Virus record (IMG/VR): IMGVR_UViG_3300041809_003479 | Span: 1-38,261 of that record | DNA: 38,261 bases | DNA from: a virus | Strand: one strand, 5' to 3' | Part shown: positions 2,263 to 7,375 of the stretch, piece after piece | Numbering within the stretch: the first letter of the stretch is position 1 | Layout of the letters: each line of letters starts with the position of its first letter | Program-made: the position numbers and the translations under genes | The notes under the pieces: generated by a model | Seen by the model: only the letters and a program-made list of their open reading frames with translations | Databases searched by the model: none | What the model was told of the DNA's origin: nothing

Positions 2263-2304
2263 ATCGCGGTGCTGTACTTCACCCTCAACCCATGAAAGGG
2301 AACC

Positions 2305-3471
2305 ATGACAACAGCAGTAAGTACCGAGTTAGCGGCGAAGAAACCGGAAGCACCGGAAGCCGCGCCGATGAAAGCGGCCATCACACTGAGCAATCTGAAA
2401 CAGGCGCTCAAGATTGTGGGCATGGCCATCGAGCGCACGGCCACCATACCGATTCTGCAATGCGTGCGCATGGAGCAGATACCAGACGGCCTCGCCCTCG
2501 AAGCAACAACCCTTGATGTGTATATTCGCGCGGTTGTGAAAGAGTTGGGCGGACCCGAAAAGCCGGTTGTGATTCCGGCGGAGAAGTTCACCGCATGGAC
2601 CAAGCTCCTGGCCGGTGAGGATGTGAAGATCAGCGCCACGGACCGCCGCGCCACGATGCAATGCGGACGTTCCCGCGCAGTGCTCCCCGTGATGCCGGCG
2701 GCAAGCTGGCCCAGCAACGAAGTGTACGGGATGAAGGCCGAGGGTATCACGCTTACCCAGGGTGATTTTGCCCGCGCTCTGCGCTTTGTCATGATCGCTG
2801 TGAGCCAGGAGGAATCGCGCTACACGCTCAACGGCGTGCTACTGCAAGGCGACGGTGAGCGGTTGCGCCTTGTGGCCACGGACGGCCACCGCCTGATGGC
2901 CTACACGCTGCCATGCACAGAGAAAATCACCCTGCTACTGCCCAGCCGGTTCATCAAGGCCCTGTTGCCGCTGCTCAACGATGAAGACGGCGGCGTCGAT
3001 CTGTGCTTTAGCGACCGGATGATTCTCTCCAGCATTGACGCGGACATGCGGGTCTATGTGGCCTCAACCAAACTGACCGGACAGTTTCCCAATTGGGAAG
3101 CGGTGATGCCCAGCGGCAAGCGCACGGAAATCACCGTCAACGCCAAAGAGATGCTGGCCAGCCTTGAGCGGTGCGGGCTGCTCAGCGATGAACGCTCGGG
3201 ATGCGTGAGGCTCACGTTTGATGAGCAGATCACGATTGAGGCGTCGAGTTCGCAGAGTGGAGAAGCCACGGAAACGGTGGACTGCAAAGGGCGTCCGAAT
3301 GAAAAGCTCTACATCGGCGTCAACGGCGCGTATCTGACCGATCTAGTCAAGCGGCTCGACGGCGAAATCACCATCTCTCTCCCGGACACGAATCAATCGC
3401 CACTGCTCATCAAAGCAGCCCCGCATGAAGGCGAAACGCTGGGCTACGTTGTGATGCCCATGAGGGTGTGA
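2305..3471 (+). CDS. dnaN: phage-encoded DNA polymerase III beta subunit (sliding clamp)
   Basis: A 388-residue beta clamp with the family's three-domain length. Domain 1 begins about residue 24 (ITLSNLKQALKIVGMAIE, then TIPILQCV), domain 2 contains GVLLQGDGERLRLVATDGHRLM, the most characteristic clamp signature, and domain 3 ends in VVMPMRV, matching the C-terminal MPMRL that lines the protein-binding pocket of bacterial DnaN. About 22 extra N-terminal residues (Pro/Ala/Lys-rich) precede the fold. It would form a dimeric ring that tethers polymerase to DNA. A good Shine-Dalgarno (AAAGGGA) precedes ATG 2305. A full clamp is uncommon in a lambda-sized phage. Confidence 0.9.
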   Translation: MTTAVSTELAAKKPEAPEAAPMKAAITLSNLKQALKIVGMAIERTATIPILQCVRMEQIPDGLALEATTLDVYIRAVVKELGGPEKPVVIPAEKFTAWTKLLAGEDVKISATDRRATMQCGRSRAVLPVMPAASWPSNEVYGMKAEGITLTQGDFARALRFVMIAVSQEESRYTLNGVLLQGDGERLRLVATDGHRLMAYTLPCTEKITLLLPSRFIKALLPLLNDEDGGVDLCFSDRMILSSIDADMRVYVASTKLTGQFPNWEAVMPSGKRTEITVNAKEMLASLERCGLLSDERSGCVRLTFDEQITIEASSSQSGEATETVDCKGRPNEKLYIGVNGAYLTDLVKRLDGEITISLPDTNQSPLLIKAAPHEGETLGYVVMPMRV

Positions 3472-3474
3472 CAG

Positions 3475-4089
3475 ATGCCCTGGGCGAAAGGTAACTACAA
3501 GGGCCGTGCGGTGACTGTACCGGCGGCCCACGGAACGGCAACGCGTTACCGGACGGGTTGCCGGTGTGATGGATGCCGGAGATCCTACGCGGCCGTACAG
3601 CGCGACCGCCGCGCCCGCGTGAAACGCAACGAATGCGATTGGACAGTGAGCGCGGATATGGCACGGGAACACTTGATTGAGTTACGCGAGAGCGGCGTGG
3701 GCAAGCGCGCGGTGATGGACTGCACGGGCATCTCGGATGTTGTGCTCATGGAGATACGCAACGGCAAGCGCCAGCGTATTCGCCAGAGCACGGAAGAGAA
3801 GATCATGCGTGTTACCGAGGATGCCCGCTCCGGCGGCGCGCTGGTAAGTGGAAAGCCCTCCACCTGGCTGATTGATGAGCTGATCGGCCATGGCTACACG
3901 ATGGCACAGTTGGCCACGCACATGGGCTATACAGACAAGCGTCTCCAGTTCTACGGGCATAAGTATGTGACCGCGACGAATGCAATGCGGATAGAGAAAA
4001 TGCACAAGGTTCTGATGCGCGAAAAGCCGGAGAGCGAGACGCGTGTAGACCGCATGATGAGGCTCGCGGCACATCGGAGGGTGGCGTAA
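3475..4089 (+). CDS. zinc-knuckle/HTH phage DNA-binding protein (204 aa)
   Basis: The N-terminus carries HGTATRYRTGCRCDGCR (residues about 20-36), a small Cys-rich knuckle (CRCDGC) seen in a group of phage and actinobacterial hypothetical proteins. A helical middle with an HTH-like pattern follows (GVGKRAVMDCTGISDVVLMEIR), then a second one (YTMAQLATHMGYTDKRLQFY). Two DNA-binding segments suggest a transcription or replication regulator. It lies three bases after dnaN and overlaps the initiator gene by one base. Function is inferred only. Confidence 0.6.
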   Translation: MPWAKGNYKGRAVTVPAAHGTATRYRTGCRCDGCRRSYAAVQRDRRARVKRNECDWTVSADMAREHLIELRESGVGKRAVMDCTGISDVVLMEIRNGKRQRIRQSTEEKIMRVTEDARSGGALVSGKPSTWLIDELIGHGYTMAQLATHMGYTDKRLQFYGHKYVTATNAMRIEKMHKVLMREKPESETRVDRMMRLAAHRRVA

Positions 4090-4940
4090 TGGCAAATTCA
4101 TGGCTCCGCCTGTGGCACGACATGCCCAACGATCCGAAGTGGAGAACGATTGCAAAGGCGAGTGGGCAGCCCATACCCACGGTGATTTCTGTCTACGTTC
4201 ACCTGTTAGTCGAGGCATCTGCGAACGCCAACGAACGCGGGCGAACGCAACCGAACGCGGAGGATTTAGCTTCCGCACTCGATGTGGAAATAGAAAGCGT
4301 TGCGGCGGTTTTGACCGCAATGGAAGGCCGCGTACTCGATCATGGAATGCTCTCCGGATGGAAGCACCGCCAACCCGAGAAAGAGGACGGAAGTGCAGAC
4401 AGGGCAAGGGCTTGGCGCGAAAAGCAGAAAGAGCTTAAAACCTCTACGAACGAAAACGAACGCGACCGAACGCCTGCGAACACAGATAAAGAAAAAGAGA
4501 AAGATAAAGAGAAGAAGAGACAAGAAACAACAGGCGCTCCGCTTTTTGTGTTGCCGGATTGGATTTCTTGTGAGGTCTGGAAGGACTTCGAGGAAATGCG
4601 CCGCAAGATCAAAGCGCCGCTCACAGACCGAGCCCGGCAGAACCTAGTGGCGGAGCTGATCCAGATCGAAGCAACGGGCCAACACGCGGAAGACGTGCTC
4701 AACCAAAGCATCACGAACAGTTGGCGCGGAGTATTCCCAATCAAGACAGACGGGGGCAGCAATGGACGTGGAGGCGGCAGTTACGGCAATCGTGGCCAGG
4801 CAAGAACCAACGGCAATCTCGAAGCCGCTCGATCCGCAGCGGAGGCTATCGCTGGTCAAGGTCATGACTGGGTTGGCGGAGGCCCGGCAAGCATCCGTGA
4901 GCGCGGAGACGTTGAAGCTGTACAGCGCTCATCTCTGTGA
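4089..4940 (+). CDS. phage replication initiator (lambda O / DnaD-like)
   Basis: A 283-residue protein. The N-terminal 110 residues look like a winged-helix replication domain (SWLRLWHDMPNDPKWRTIAKASGQ, then VISVYVHLLVEA). A charged low-complexity linker follows (about 115-150, KEKEKDKEKKRQE), then a C-terminal domain with WKDFEEMRRKIKAPLTDRA and NQSITNSWRGVFP, a signature of phage O/DnaD-type replication proteins. The role is origin binding and helicase recruitment. Two clusters of CGAACG repeats lie inside the gene, as lambda O contains its own origin. The 3' end overlaps the next gene by 179 bases in another frame. Confidence 0.7.
   Translation: MANSWLRLWHDMPNDPKWRTIAKASGQPIPTVISVYVHLLVEASANANERGRTQPNAEDLASALDVEIESVAAVLTAMEGRVLDHGMLSGWKHRQPEKEDGSADRARAWREKQKELKTSTNENERDRTPANTDKEKEKDKEKKRQETTGAPLFVLPDWISCEVWKDFEEMRRKIKAPLTDRARQNLVAELIQIEATGQHAEDVLNQSITNSWRGVFPIKTDGGSNGRGGGSYGNRGQARTNGNLEAARSAAEAIAGQGHDWVGGGPASIRERGDVEAVQRSSL
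4222..4257 (+). repeat. iteron cluster 1: four CGAACG repeats, 10-bp period
   Basis: CGAACG occurs at 4222, 4232, 4242 and 4252, every 10 bases exactly, each followed by C; the blocks read gCGAACGCca, aCGAACGCgg, gCGAACGCaa and cCGAACGCgg. Ten is not a multiple of three, so the repeat moves through all codon phases. It is therefore conserved as DNA rather than as peptide, and all copies face the same side of the helix. Candidate initiator-binding sites. Confidence 0.75.
4447..4482 (+). repeat. iteron cluster 2: four CGAACG-type repeats, 10-bp period
   Basis: CGAACG at 4447, 4457 and 4467 and CGAACA at 4477 repeat with the same exact 10-bp spacing as the cluster 195 bp upstream. The 3' side runs straight into a purine-rich, A-rich strand. 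Same interpretation as cluster 1. Confidence 0.7.
4483..4531. other. A/G-rich candidate DNA-unwinding element of the replication origin
   Basis: About 49 bases almost wholly A and G on the top strand, encoding the Lys/Glu linker of the initiator. It lies directly 3' of the second iteron cluster, the same order (iterons, then asymmetric A+T-rich DNA) as in the lambda origin inside gene O. Function as an unwinding element is inferred from this order. Confidence 0.5.
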
Positions 4941-5217
4941 CTTTGATTCCGGCGACGTGCGAGATGTTGTGCGCGCGCTGGCCATGCGCAAGCGCGCTGA
5001 GGGCGAGACCGCTTTCCCCGCCCTGGGCGATTTGGTAGAGCCGTTGGAACGGAAGCGGGAACGCCGCCGGGAAGAGAACAAGCGGGCCGGCCAAAGGCAA
5101 GCGGAGATTGTGGAGTTTTGGCGCATGGTCCCCGGATGGATGGAAATCACCGGCCAAAGTGAATCGGAAATTTTAGAGCGTTGGCCCAGCTTCAAGGGCA
5201 CGAAACCGAGGGTGTGA
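4762..5217 (+). CDS. helicase-loader-like phage replication protein (151 aa)
   Basis: The middle of the protein reads SAETLKLYSAHLCDFDSGDVRDVVRALAMRK, then TAFPALGDLVEPLE, which is the layout of phage helicase loaders (a helical unit with LxxYxxxLxDxxxxxVxxAxxxL followed by FPxxxEI). A charged coiled coil (ERKRERRREENKRAGQ) and a short C-terminal helix follow. Its place immediately after the initiator fits a lambda P / G39P-like role. The ATG at 4762 gives a 179-base overlap with the initiator; ATG 4864 would shorten this but would still keep the core. Function is inferred. Confidence 0.55.
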   Translation: MDVEAAVTAIVARQEPTAISKPLDPQRRLSLVKVMTGLAEARQASVSAETLKLYSAHLCDFDSGDVRDVVRALAMRKRAEGETAFPALGDLVEPLERKRERRREENKRAGQRQAEIVEFWRMVPGWMEITGQSESEILERWPSFKGTKPRV

Positions 5218-5792
5218 TGGCAGAGCAATCGCAGTTAGACGTGAGCAGATGGCAAGCGGCAACGCGCGGGTTTCAGTACACCCCGGCGCTGTGGTTTTTC
5301 TTTCGCATGATCGAGGTTGCGTTCCTTGACGCGCGCACGATCTACCCGGCCAGTGCGCCAGGGCAGAGGACAGAAGCCGCGCCATGTGCGCCGCCGCCGC
5401 TGTTGAGCGGGATGGCCGTGCCCATGGTTGTTTCCGATGACGAACCGTTGCCGGCATCGGCGTTGAAGTATCCCGGCCGGCCCACGGATGAGGCGTTGCT
5501 TGCACGCGATTGGATTGCACGCTCCGAGGCCGCGCCGACGTGGGTGTATGCGTTCGGTGCATCGCATGAGTTCTTGAGCTTTCCGGAGTGTTGCCAGATA
5601 TTAGGGCTCGATCCGGATGTGGAGAGAGCAGCCTTGCTGGAAGTGATTGACAAGGCTGTAGACAGTGACAATGACGAAGCCTGGGCGCGCTTGGATGAGC
5701 TGAGCACGCGTGAGCCTCAAGACGACGTGGAGCCGCTGTTCGATGCTCCTCGGGTTGTGCCGGCGCTGGATCAACTGGCGTTGTTCGCGTAA
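5217..5792 (+). CDS. hypothetical phage protein (191 aa)
   Basis: Start chosen at ATG 5217, which overlaps the preceding stop (TGATG). The product is acidic, with a Pro/Ala-rich middle and a conserved-looking segment ARDWIARSEAAPTWVYAFGASHEFLSFPECCQILGLDPDVERAALL. This last part resembles a short motif found in phage proteins located between replication and ASCH-domain genes, possibly a small regulator of transcription. No enzyme motif is visible. Function unknown. Confidence 0.6.
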   Translation: MAEQSQLDVSRWQAATRGFQYTPALWFFFRMIEVAFLDARTIYPASAPGQRTEAAPCAPPPLLSGMAVPMVVSDDEPLPASALKYPGRPTDEALLARDWIARSEAAPTWVYAFGASHEFLSFPECCQILGLDPDVERAALLEVIDKAVDSDNDEAWARLDELSTREPQDDVEPLFDAPRVVPALDQLALFA

Positions 5793-5801
5793 GGGAGAAC
5801 G

Positions 5802-6473
5802 ATGAAAGAACGTCCCATCTTATTCAGCGGCCCGATGGTCCGCGCATTCCTTGAAGATCGCAAGACGAACACGCGGCGAGTCATCAACTTTGACACGGTA
5901 GGCAACAGAGAACAAAGCCGCAATTGCTTTGGACCGGACGGATACGACACAGTGGGTGAAAAAAGCATCATTCGTGTCCCGTGGACGGTTGAAAGTTTGA
6001 AGCATCTTCTTGTCTGTCCATTCGGAGAAGTAGGCGACCGGCTGTGGGTGAAAGAAACATACTTCGCGTGGCGCTGCAAAACCTACACGTCAGAGGGAAT
6101 GACCGAAGGCCCCGAACAGTGCGTGTATGCCGCAGACGGCGGAACGTTGCTCAATGGTGCGAAATGGCGTCCGTCGATTTTCATGTTCCGCAGGTTTTCT
6201 CGCATCACGCTTGAGATTACCGATGCGCGGGTGCAACGGTTGCAGGAAATCACAGAGGAAGATGCACAGGCTGAGGGCGCTCTATTCCATGACGGCGGCG
6301 GCATCGGTCACAGCGGATGGAGGCATGACATCAACCACGGCTTTGTGTACGGAAATGCCCGCACTTCATTTGCCAAGCTGTGGGATTCTCTCAACGCGAA
6401 ACGCGGATTTGGATGGAACGAAAACCCGTGGCTATGGGCGTTGACCTTGCGCCGCGTGAAAGAGGGTGCGTGA
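5802..6473 (+). CDS. ASCH/PUA-like phage protein (223 aa)
   Basis: The opening ERPILFSGPMVRAFLEDRKTNTRRV, the middle FGEVGDRLWVKETYFAW and WRPSIFMFRRFSRITLEITDARVQRLQEI, and the end FAKLWDSLNAKRGFGWNENPWLWAL form the usual pattern of an ASCH-like (PUA-fold) phage protein often labelled morphogenetic or hypothetical. PUA-fold proteins bind RNA or modified bases, so a role in RNA or nucleotide recognition is possible. Good Shine-Dalgarno (AAGGGAGAACG) before ATG 5802. Overlaps the next gene by one base. Confidence 0.75.
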   Translation: MKERPILFSGPMVRAFLEDRKTNTRRVINFDTVGNREQSRNCFGPDGYDTVGEKSIIRVPWTVESLKHLLVCPFGEVGDRLWVKETYFAWRCKTYTSEGMTEGPEQCVYAADGGTLLNGAKWRPSIFMFRRFSRITLEITDARVQRLQEITEEDAQAEGALFHDGGGIGHSGWRHDINHGFVYGNARTSFAKLWDSLNAKRGFGWNENPWLWALTLRRVKEGA

Positions 6474-7375
6474 TGGGTGAAGTTACGAAAATTGCGTGGT
6501 GCGATCACACGTTCAATCCGTGGATCGGCTGCACGCGTGTTTCGCCTGGCTGCCAGCACTGCTACGCCGAAACGCAGAACAACTTTCACAAGTGGAATGG
6601 CGGCGCATGGGGGCCTGGCACAGAGCGGCGCATAACAAGCGACGGCAATTGGGCACAGCTCCGCAAGTGGGACCGCAAGGCGGTGTTAGATAGAGTGCGC
6701 CGCCGCGTATTTGTGGCCTCACTGGCCGACGTGTTTGACGCGGAGGCTCCGCTTGATACGCGTGAGCGGCTTTGGCTTGAGATTGAAAGTTGCGCTCATG
6801 GGCTGGATTTCTTATTGCTCACGAAACGGCCGGAGAATTGGAGCAAGTATCTGCCCGCGCATTGGCTCTCCGATTGGCCCGCGCATGTGCGGCTGGGATT
6901 CACCGCTGAGGATCAGACGCGGTGGGAAGAGCGTGCGAAGATCGCTCTTGACTTTCGGTTGACGGTGCGGAACTGCCTGCCGTTCTTTGTGAGCTGTGAA
7001 CCGCTGGTCGGTGAAATCGATCTTCAGTTGGTTCAATTGCCAGGGCCTAACCAACTCGCCGGCCATGATTGCGCGGTGGATTTGACCACGGCGCGTATCA
7101 ATGAGCGCCCAATGATCGGATGGGTGATTGTGGGCGGCGAGAGCGGCCACGATGCACGCCAGATGCAAGCGGATTGGGCGCGGCGGGTGAGGGATCAATG
7201 CACCCATGCCGGCGTGCCGTTCTTTTTCAAGCAATGGGGCGAATGGATGCCAACCACCGATCCCAGCATTGCCAAGGCACGCGGAATCCCACTTGAGCGG
7301 TGCATGAGCTACGTCGGCAAAAAAGCGGCCGGCAACCTGCTTGATGGCCGTGAGTGGATAGAGTTCCCGGCTTAA
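6473..7375 (+). CDS. DUF5131 / phage Gp37-Gp68 family protein (300 aa)
   Basis: Start set at ATG 6473, overlapping the previous stop; the family begins just before TKIAWCDHTFNPWIGC. Cysteines 20, 27 and 30 (CTRVSPGCQHCYAE) form the family's signature metal or Fe-S site, related to spore-photoproduct-lyase-like radical SAM proteins although its spacing (CX6CX2C) is not the classical CX3CX2C. Later signatures are LTKRPENW, LGFTAEDQ, FVSCEPLVGEI and GWVIVGGESGHDARQM, followed by VPFFFKQWGEW. Widespread in phages and beside some defence loci; its reaction is not established. A terminator lies 26 bases after the stop. Confidence 0.85.
   Translation: MGEVTKIAWCDHTFNPWIGCTRVSPGCQHCYAETQNNFHKWNGGAWGPGTERRITSDGNWAQLRKWDRKAVLDRVRRRVFVASLADVFDAEAPLDTRERLWLEIESCAHGLDFLLLTKRPENWSKYLPAHWLSDWPAHVRLGFTAEDQTRWEERAKIALDFRLTVRNCLPFFVSCEPLVGEIDLQLVQLPGPNQLAGHDCAVDLTTARINERPMIGWVIVGGESGHDARQMQADWARRVRDQCTHAGVPFFFKQWGEWMPTTDPSIAKARGIPLERCMSYVGKKAAGNLLDGREWIEFPA

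Follow-up and report, generated by a model that had tools for sequence, protein, structure and literature searches.

The replication origin of phage lambda lies inside the initiator gene, O, between the DNA-binding and helicase-recruiting halves of the protein, and the same is true of its Stx-phage relatives (PMC7466680, PMC5043065). The lambda iterons come first and are followed by an A+T-rich tract, one strand of which consists almost entirely of purines (PMC5043065, PMC7466680), and the O sites bind dimers (PMC5043065). The iteron plasmid origins of RK2, P1, F and pSC101 also carry direct repeats that are specific to their initiator and in helical phase, and an A+T-rich region adjoins them (PMC5043065).

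Here we describe a locus that resembles both systems, in a viral DNA of 38,261 bases that makes up an entire IMG/VR record (the window). Like the lambda origin, it sits inside an initiator gene, between the DNA-binding and presumed helicase-recruiting halves, and like the plasmid origins it has direct repeats in helical phase beside an A+T-rich region. We consider it very likely, with a probability of roughly 85%, that positions 4222–4530 are the replication origin of this phage, located within the gene for its own initiator and acting through iteron binding and tract melting.

The arrangement of the repeats differs from both precedents. Lambda has a single cluster of four 18-bp iterons that start 20–24 bp apart, or one iteron per two helical turns, whereas the window has two clusters of 6–7 bp words that are 10–11 bp apart, or one per turn. 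Plasmid iterons are about 17–22 bp long and usually lie outside the initiator reading frame; those in the window, in contrast, encode part of the initiator. The two hallmarks of a lambda-type internal origin are nevertheless present, namely repeats within the initiator coding sequence, to which the initiator presumably binds, and an adjoining A+T-rich, strand-asymmetric purine tract. The first-pass annotation had matched the locus to lambda O in both layout and gene order, and the layout, with iterons and then a purine tract in the initiator gene, indeed agrees. The gene order does not, as a sliding-clamp homologue lies upstream and the downstream open reading frame has no family match. Membership of the lambda O family itself was considered and rejected: the window protein has another kind of DNA-binding domain and does not match Phage_rep_O (PF04492 / TIGR01610), which lambda O does, BLASTP against lambda O found no similarity (E=6), and the locus has neither the single cluster of 18-bp iterons at 20–24 bp spacing nor the cII-O-P order. 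At the sequence level, the data fit a locus that would work like a lambda-type internal origin but whose protein is not a Phage_rep_O member.

The initiator gene and its iterons

The initiator gene (4089–4940, + strand) encodes 283 residues, arranged as an N-terminal winged helix, a linker and a C-terminal domain of O-like or primosomal type, as judged from PHROG matches and an AlphaFold2 (AF2) model. In PHROG profile searches residues 1–145 matched phrog_3729, 'replication initiation protein' (E=1e-38), a match across the N-terminal half that places the protein in PHROG 3729, and residues 114–237 matched phrog_678, 'replication initiation O-like' (E=5e-21). Searches of Pfam and NCBIfam with the same protein gave no match. 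The AF2 model contains a winged-helix domain, within which residues 68–78 (coding positions 4290–4322, + strand; block pLDDT >90) form the predicted recognition helix and may read the DNA. The C-terminal helical domain, residues 161–209 (4569–4715, + strand; phrog_678 match and AF2), is presumed to recruit a helicase or helicase loader. With the model as query, the Foldseek hits in the PDB were limited to weak ones to winged-helix regulators (E>0.1), none of them confident, and a PDB sequence search found nothing firm.

The upstream sliding-clamp homologue (DNA polymerase III beta, with three Pfam domains; 2305–3471) is two genes away from the initiator, and a phrog_1590 reading frame likewise lies upstream. 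The downstream reading frame (4762–5217) overlaps the 3’ end of the initiator gene, in the position of a helicase loader, and has no match in PHROGs, Pfam or NCBIfam. The early region also encodes a DUF5131 protein (6380–7375; PF07505, E=3e-71).

Two iteron clusters lie within the gene, on the + strand. In cluster A (4222–4258) the word CGAACG starts at 4222, 4232, 4242 and 4252, and in cluster B (4447–4482) it starts at 4447, 4457 and 4467, followed by CGAACA at 4477, all as the first-pass annotation had placed them. Cluster A is about 200 bp upstream of B and encodes ANANERGRTQPNA, in the loop between helix 29–45 and the HTH helix 57–64 of the AF2 model, while B encodes the end of helix 102–123 and the beginning of a disordered linker. 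A proposed genome-wide enrichment of CGAACG did not materialize, with 33 copies found in the window and 33.9 expected; the signal is in the spacing rather than the abundance of the word, and window-wide enrichment is not needed. Identical 6-mers at 10/11-bp steps form chains of up to four in the window but never of more than two when the whole window was dinucleotide-shuffled 60 times, and within the gene seven copies stand in 10/11-bp steps compared to at most four across 200 codon-synonymous shuffles. The raw copy number taken alone is only mildly unusual once the peptide is fixed: 181 of 20,000 synonymous shuffles contain at least seven copies, since it is the repeats that make up this peptide. 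The idea that the 10-bp step is out of register with the codons held up, as the copies occupy frames 1, 2, 0 and 1 in cluster A and 1, 2 and 0 in cluster B.

Conservation of the repeats and the purine tract among homologues

Homologues were gathered from viral contigs, bacterial genomes and phage records. Loss of the repeats from relatives with a conserved protein had been put forward as evidence that would count against an origin, and we see the opposite: the repeats persist at both places, and it is the word and the local peptide that vary. Nearly all members of the main clade have repeats in the loop before the HTH (A) and in the interdomain linker (B). The word follows the clade, being CGAACG(C) in the relatives of the window, GTCACG in a large group found in Pseudomonas, Bordetella, E. 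coli and others, and GTAACG in two separate groups. Escherichia phage Evi and Aeromonas phage pAEv1818 carry initiators of the GTCACG class. The 10/11-bp chain lies beyond all 200 synonymous shuffles in 47 of 52 non-redundant homologues, and the steps within clusters are mostly of 10 bp (157) or 11 bp (39), with 13 skips of 20–22 bp and the rest rare. All three codon frames are used to a similar extent (38/48/40 for CGAACG and 90/69/62 for GTCACG), which makes the repeat peptide a by-product; no homologue was found in which the peptides are kept but the DNA is recoded. A minority of relatives lacks cluster A or has degenerate repeats (L264, L111 and L102). In L102 (3001–4305; Pantoea sp. BAV 3049) the winged helix is kept and the usual B repeats and tract are absent; in their place is a stretch that resembles, by eye, a GIY-YIG domain, with CTACGTAG-like repeats.

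In each of the 59 genes for which a word could be called at A and at B, the two are identical, and the word has changed at least six times on a winged-helix tree, which was built without the A loop and has few columns and many unresolved forks. Agreement of the two clusters despite these changes is as expected if one protein reads both. The related sequences in all these counts are not independent events, which matters least for the word changes counted on the tree and for the changes of frame. Inspection by eye of closely related pairs that differ in their word (for example L270/L276/L273) showed no simple code by which single residues of the winged helix would specify the word. Helical phasing between A and B showed some preference within word classes, with R values of 0.57 and 0.70; the mean phases differ and the sequences are related, and we do not claim it.

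Cluster B leads into a purine-rich tract (4484–4530, + strand; AGATAAAGAAAAAGAGAAAGATAAAGAG... on the coding strand), a candidate DNA unwinding element. The A/G-rich strand noticed in the first-pass annotation is confirmed, with 41 of 45 purines from 4483 on, the most on the + strand of any 45-bp segment in the window. The tract is also the least stable 45-bp segment in the 38 kb, by nearest-neighbour energy, and encodes the remainder of the disordered linker after cluster B (AF2). Along the window, GC skew switches sign at about 2.2 and 8.3 kb and shows no sharp change at the tract. In the homologues the last iteron is followed by (C/T)AGATAAAGATA... in fixed register, such that the first base of the last exact iteron mostly lies 8, 18 or 28 bp (±1–2) ahead of the tract, the offsets of 18 or 28 bp occurring in genes with one or two degenerate final slots. 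The GC content is 0.29 in the tract compared to 0.54 in the gene and is lower in 48 of 48 genes. The ratio of GAT to GAC codons for Asp is 167:2 within the tract and 390:362 elsewhere, and the tract uses ACA for 73 of 83 Thr and AGA for 23 of 27 Arg. Furthermore, identical tract DNA, AGATAA..., is read as TDKDKDK, RLDKRR or QIREEE depending on the gene; seven genes have RLDKRR or QIREEE in place of TDKDKDK, although one of these, L106, is apparently a frameshifted copy. The tract behaves as a DNA element that is kept when the reading frame and the peptide change.

It could be argued that these are protein features, with charged low-complexity linkers (ERNRT, DKDKDK, DTDTDT) selected as peptides and tandem DNA repeats arising as by-products of slippage. 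Both sites encode parts of the protein, a loop or a disordered linker, whose sequence can vary freely, and the DT and DK runs, for example in L006, look slippage-prone. We find this explanation scarcely credible, however, because the 10-bp steps rotate the codon frame and use all three frames about equally, because the tract codons are extremely skewed to GAT, ACA and AGA and the tract survives frame changes, and because the A and B words switch jointly and cluster A can be relocated into a helix (see below).

A second possibility is that the repeats are autoregulatory operators, through which the winged-helix protein represses its own gene or blocks elongation, with the origin elsewhere. An intragenic array bound by its own product could serve as a roadblock, and cluster A at least, ~200 bp from the tract, could be regulatory. 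This would however leave unexplained both the fixed register between B and a tract with such an extreme A+T and purine content and the conservation of the tract DNA, and the protein families concerned are replication initiators. We therefore regard regulation without an origin as unlikely and favour an internal origin.

Hairpins are found 3’ of the tract at p≤0.05 in 25 of 80 genes and are absent in many, the window included. In six relatives (L088, L091, L095, L109, L263 and L290) the hairpins have the loop TCACTACGTTC in common and differ in their stems (ACCTACC/GGTAGGT, ACCCACC/GGTGGGT, TCTTCC/GGAAGA and GTAGATACC/GGTATCTAC), and other relatives have CCCCCTAACCCCC...GGGGG 3’ of the tract. 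The hairpins are possibly a further origin or transcription element.

PHROG 3729/21423/15931 initiators, which include proteins named 'DnaT-like ssDNA-binding domain-containing protein' in E. coli genomes, are homologous to the window protein, and a GTCACG-type relative is present in 785 of 5426 complete E. coli genomes. The C-terminal domain is O-like in the window and DnaT-like in the E. coli relatives (PF17948). These initiators are annotated as proteins only, and a literature search, with most subscription journals outside its reach, returned no description of an internal origin in them. The putative internal origin of PHROG 3729-type initiators is apparently undescribed.

Exchange of the coding cassette and related designs

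The DNA-binding domain, both iteron clusters and the tract together form an exchangeable cassette (4077–4535, + strand). A locus, L004, is 94.3% identical to the window over 2279–4076 and 95.4% identical over 4536–5806 and unrelated in between, with one breakpoint immediately upstream of the start codon and the other immediately downstream of the tract. The L004 piece encodes a different initiator N-terminal domain (phrog_9474, E=1.5e-15). The repeats of this piece are weak, so that L004 reveals what is exchanged as a unit rather than providing a second clear iteron set. Recombination junctions that coincide with the cassette boundaries might also be expected if the arrays served another phage DNA transaction, such as a packaging start, a partition site, a recombination hotspot or satellite interference. 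We judge this very unlikely, since the position of the arrays in the initiator gene and the matching word switching argue that the initiator itself is the reader, and the terminase gene is ~5 kb from the arrays.

The combination of iterons and tract could also be retrieved from DNA alone. Scans of viral contigs that made no use of the protein found at least 66 distinct readable places. At least 65 were in this initiator gene and one, L350, was in a winged-helix initiator of variant type; among the matches listed, all places had at least two upstream A copies. In L350 and in L263, cluster A is absent from the usual loop and sits in the coding sequence for the recognition helix (codons 67–78, NAIERIRTHMN). 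In these two relatives the iterons would encode the very helix that is predicted to read them.

Similar arrangements occur in other initiators. Only cluster B is present in a cyanophage-like clade (MDWFRWHHG...), where the words are NNNACGCC and the tract is AGAGGAGAG. DUF1376 initiators (L302, L325, L336 and L480–L559) have 11-bp repeats, followed by a CCAATAACCAATAACC tract or, in L336, by a GATACA tract; the repeats of L336 read ACGAATC and occur in two positions. A CCAATAACC-type tract is present in 28 of 29 non-redundant DUF1376 genes, while the exact-repeat statistics are significant in only 7 of 29. These sequences suggest that DUF1376 is an origin-binding domain. We hypothesize, at about even odds, a general phage design in which the initiator DNA-binding domain, iterons and unwinding tract make up one coding cassette, so that the initiator has its target inside its own reading frame and the specificity switches or is swapped as a unit, and which reappears in combination with unrelated N-terminal domains, DUF1376 among them (L336, L325 and L302).

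A proposed mechanism and its implications

From these sequences we infer binding of the repeats by the winged helix, melting of the tract and initiation of replication at this site. In the mechanism we propose, the N-terminal winged helix would bind the CGAACG iterons of cluster B, and probably also those of A, with a single protomer on each helical turn; that a word recurs once every turn suggests monomers aligned on one face of the DNA. The nucleoprotein array on B, held in fixed register with 4484–4530, would then melt the tract under negative supercoiling, by analogy with lambda and the iteron plasmids, and would probably hold one strand of the melted tract. The C-terminal domain could then recruit a helicase loader or helicase. 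Cluster A may assist by adding affinity, by loading, by looping to B, or by repressing the gene in an autoregulatory role.

Our results provide a base-level prediction of the replication origin for a large family of phages and prophages, now annotated merely as a protein. The natural word switches between CGAACG, GTCACG and GTAACG, together with the matching initiator sequences, are material for studying how initiators recognize their origins. If confirmed, the coding-cassette origin would be widespread and DUF1376 would be an origin-binding domain. Low-complexity peptides that are common in phage replication proteins, such as DKDKDK, CHDESRNVTTDK and TNNQEPITNNQ, may be reinterpreted as origin DNA that is read in frame, and this family would be a clear case in which DNA function dictates protein sequence.
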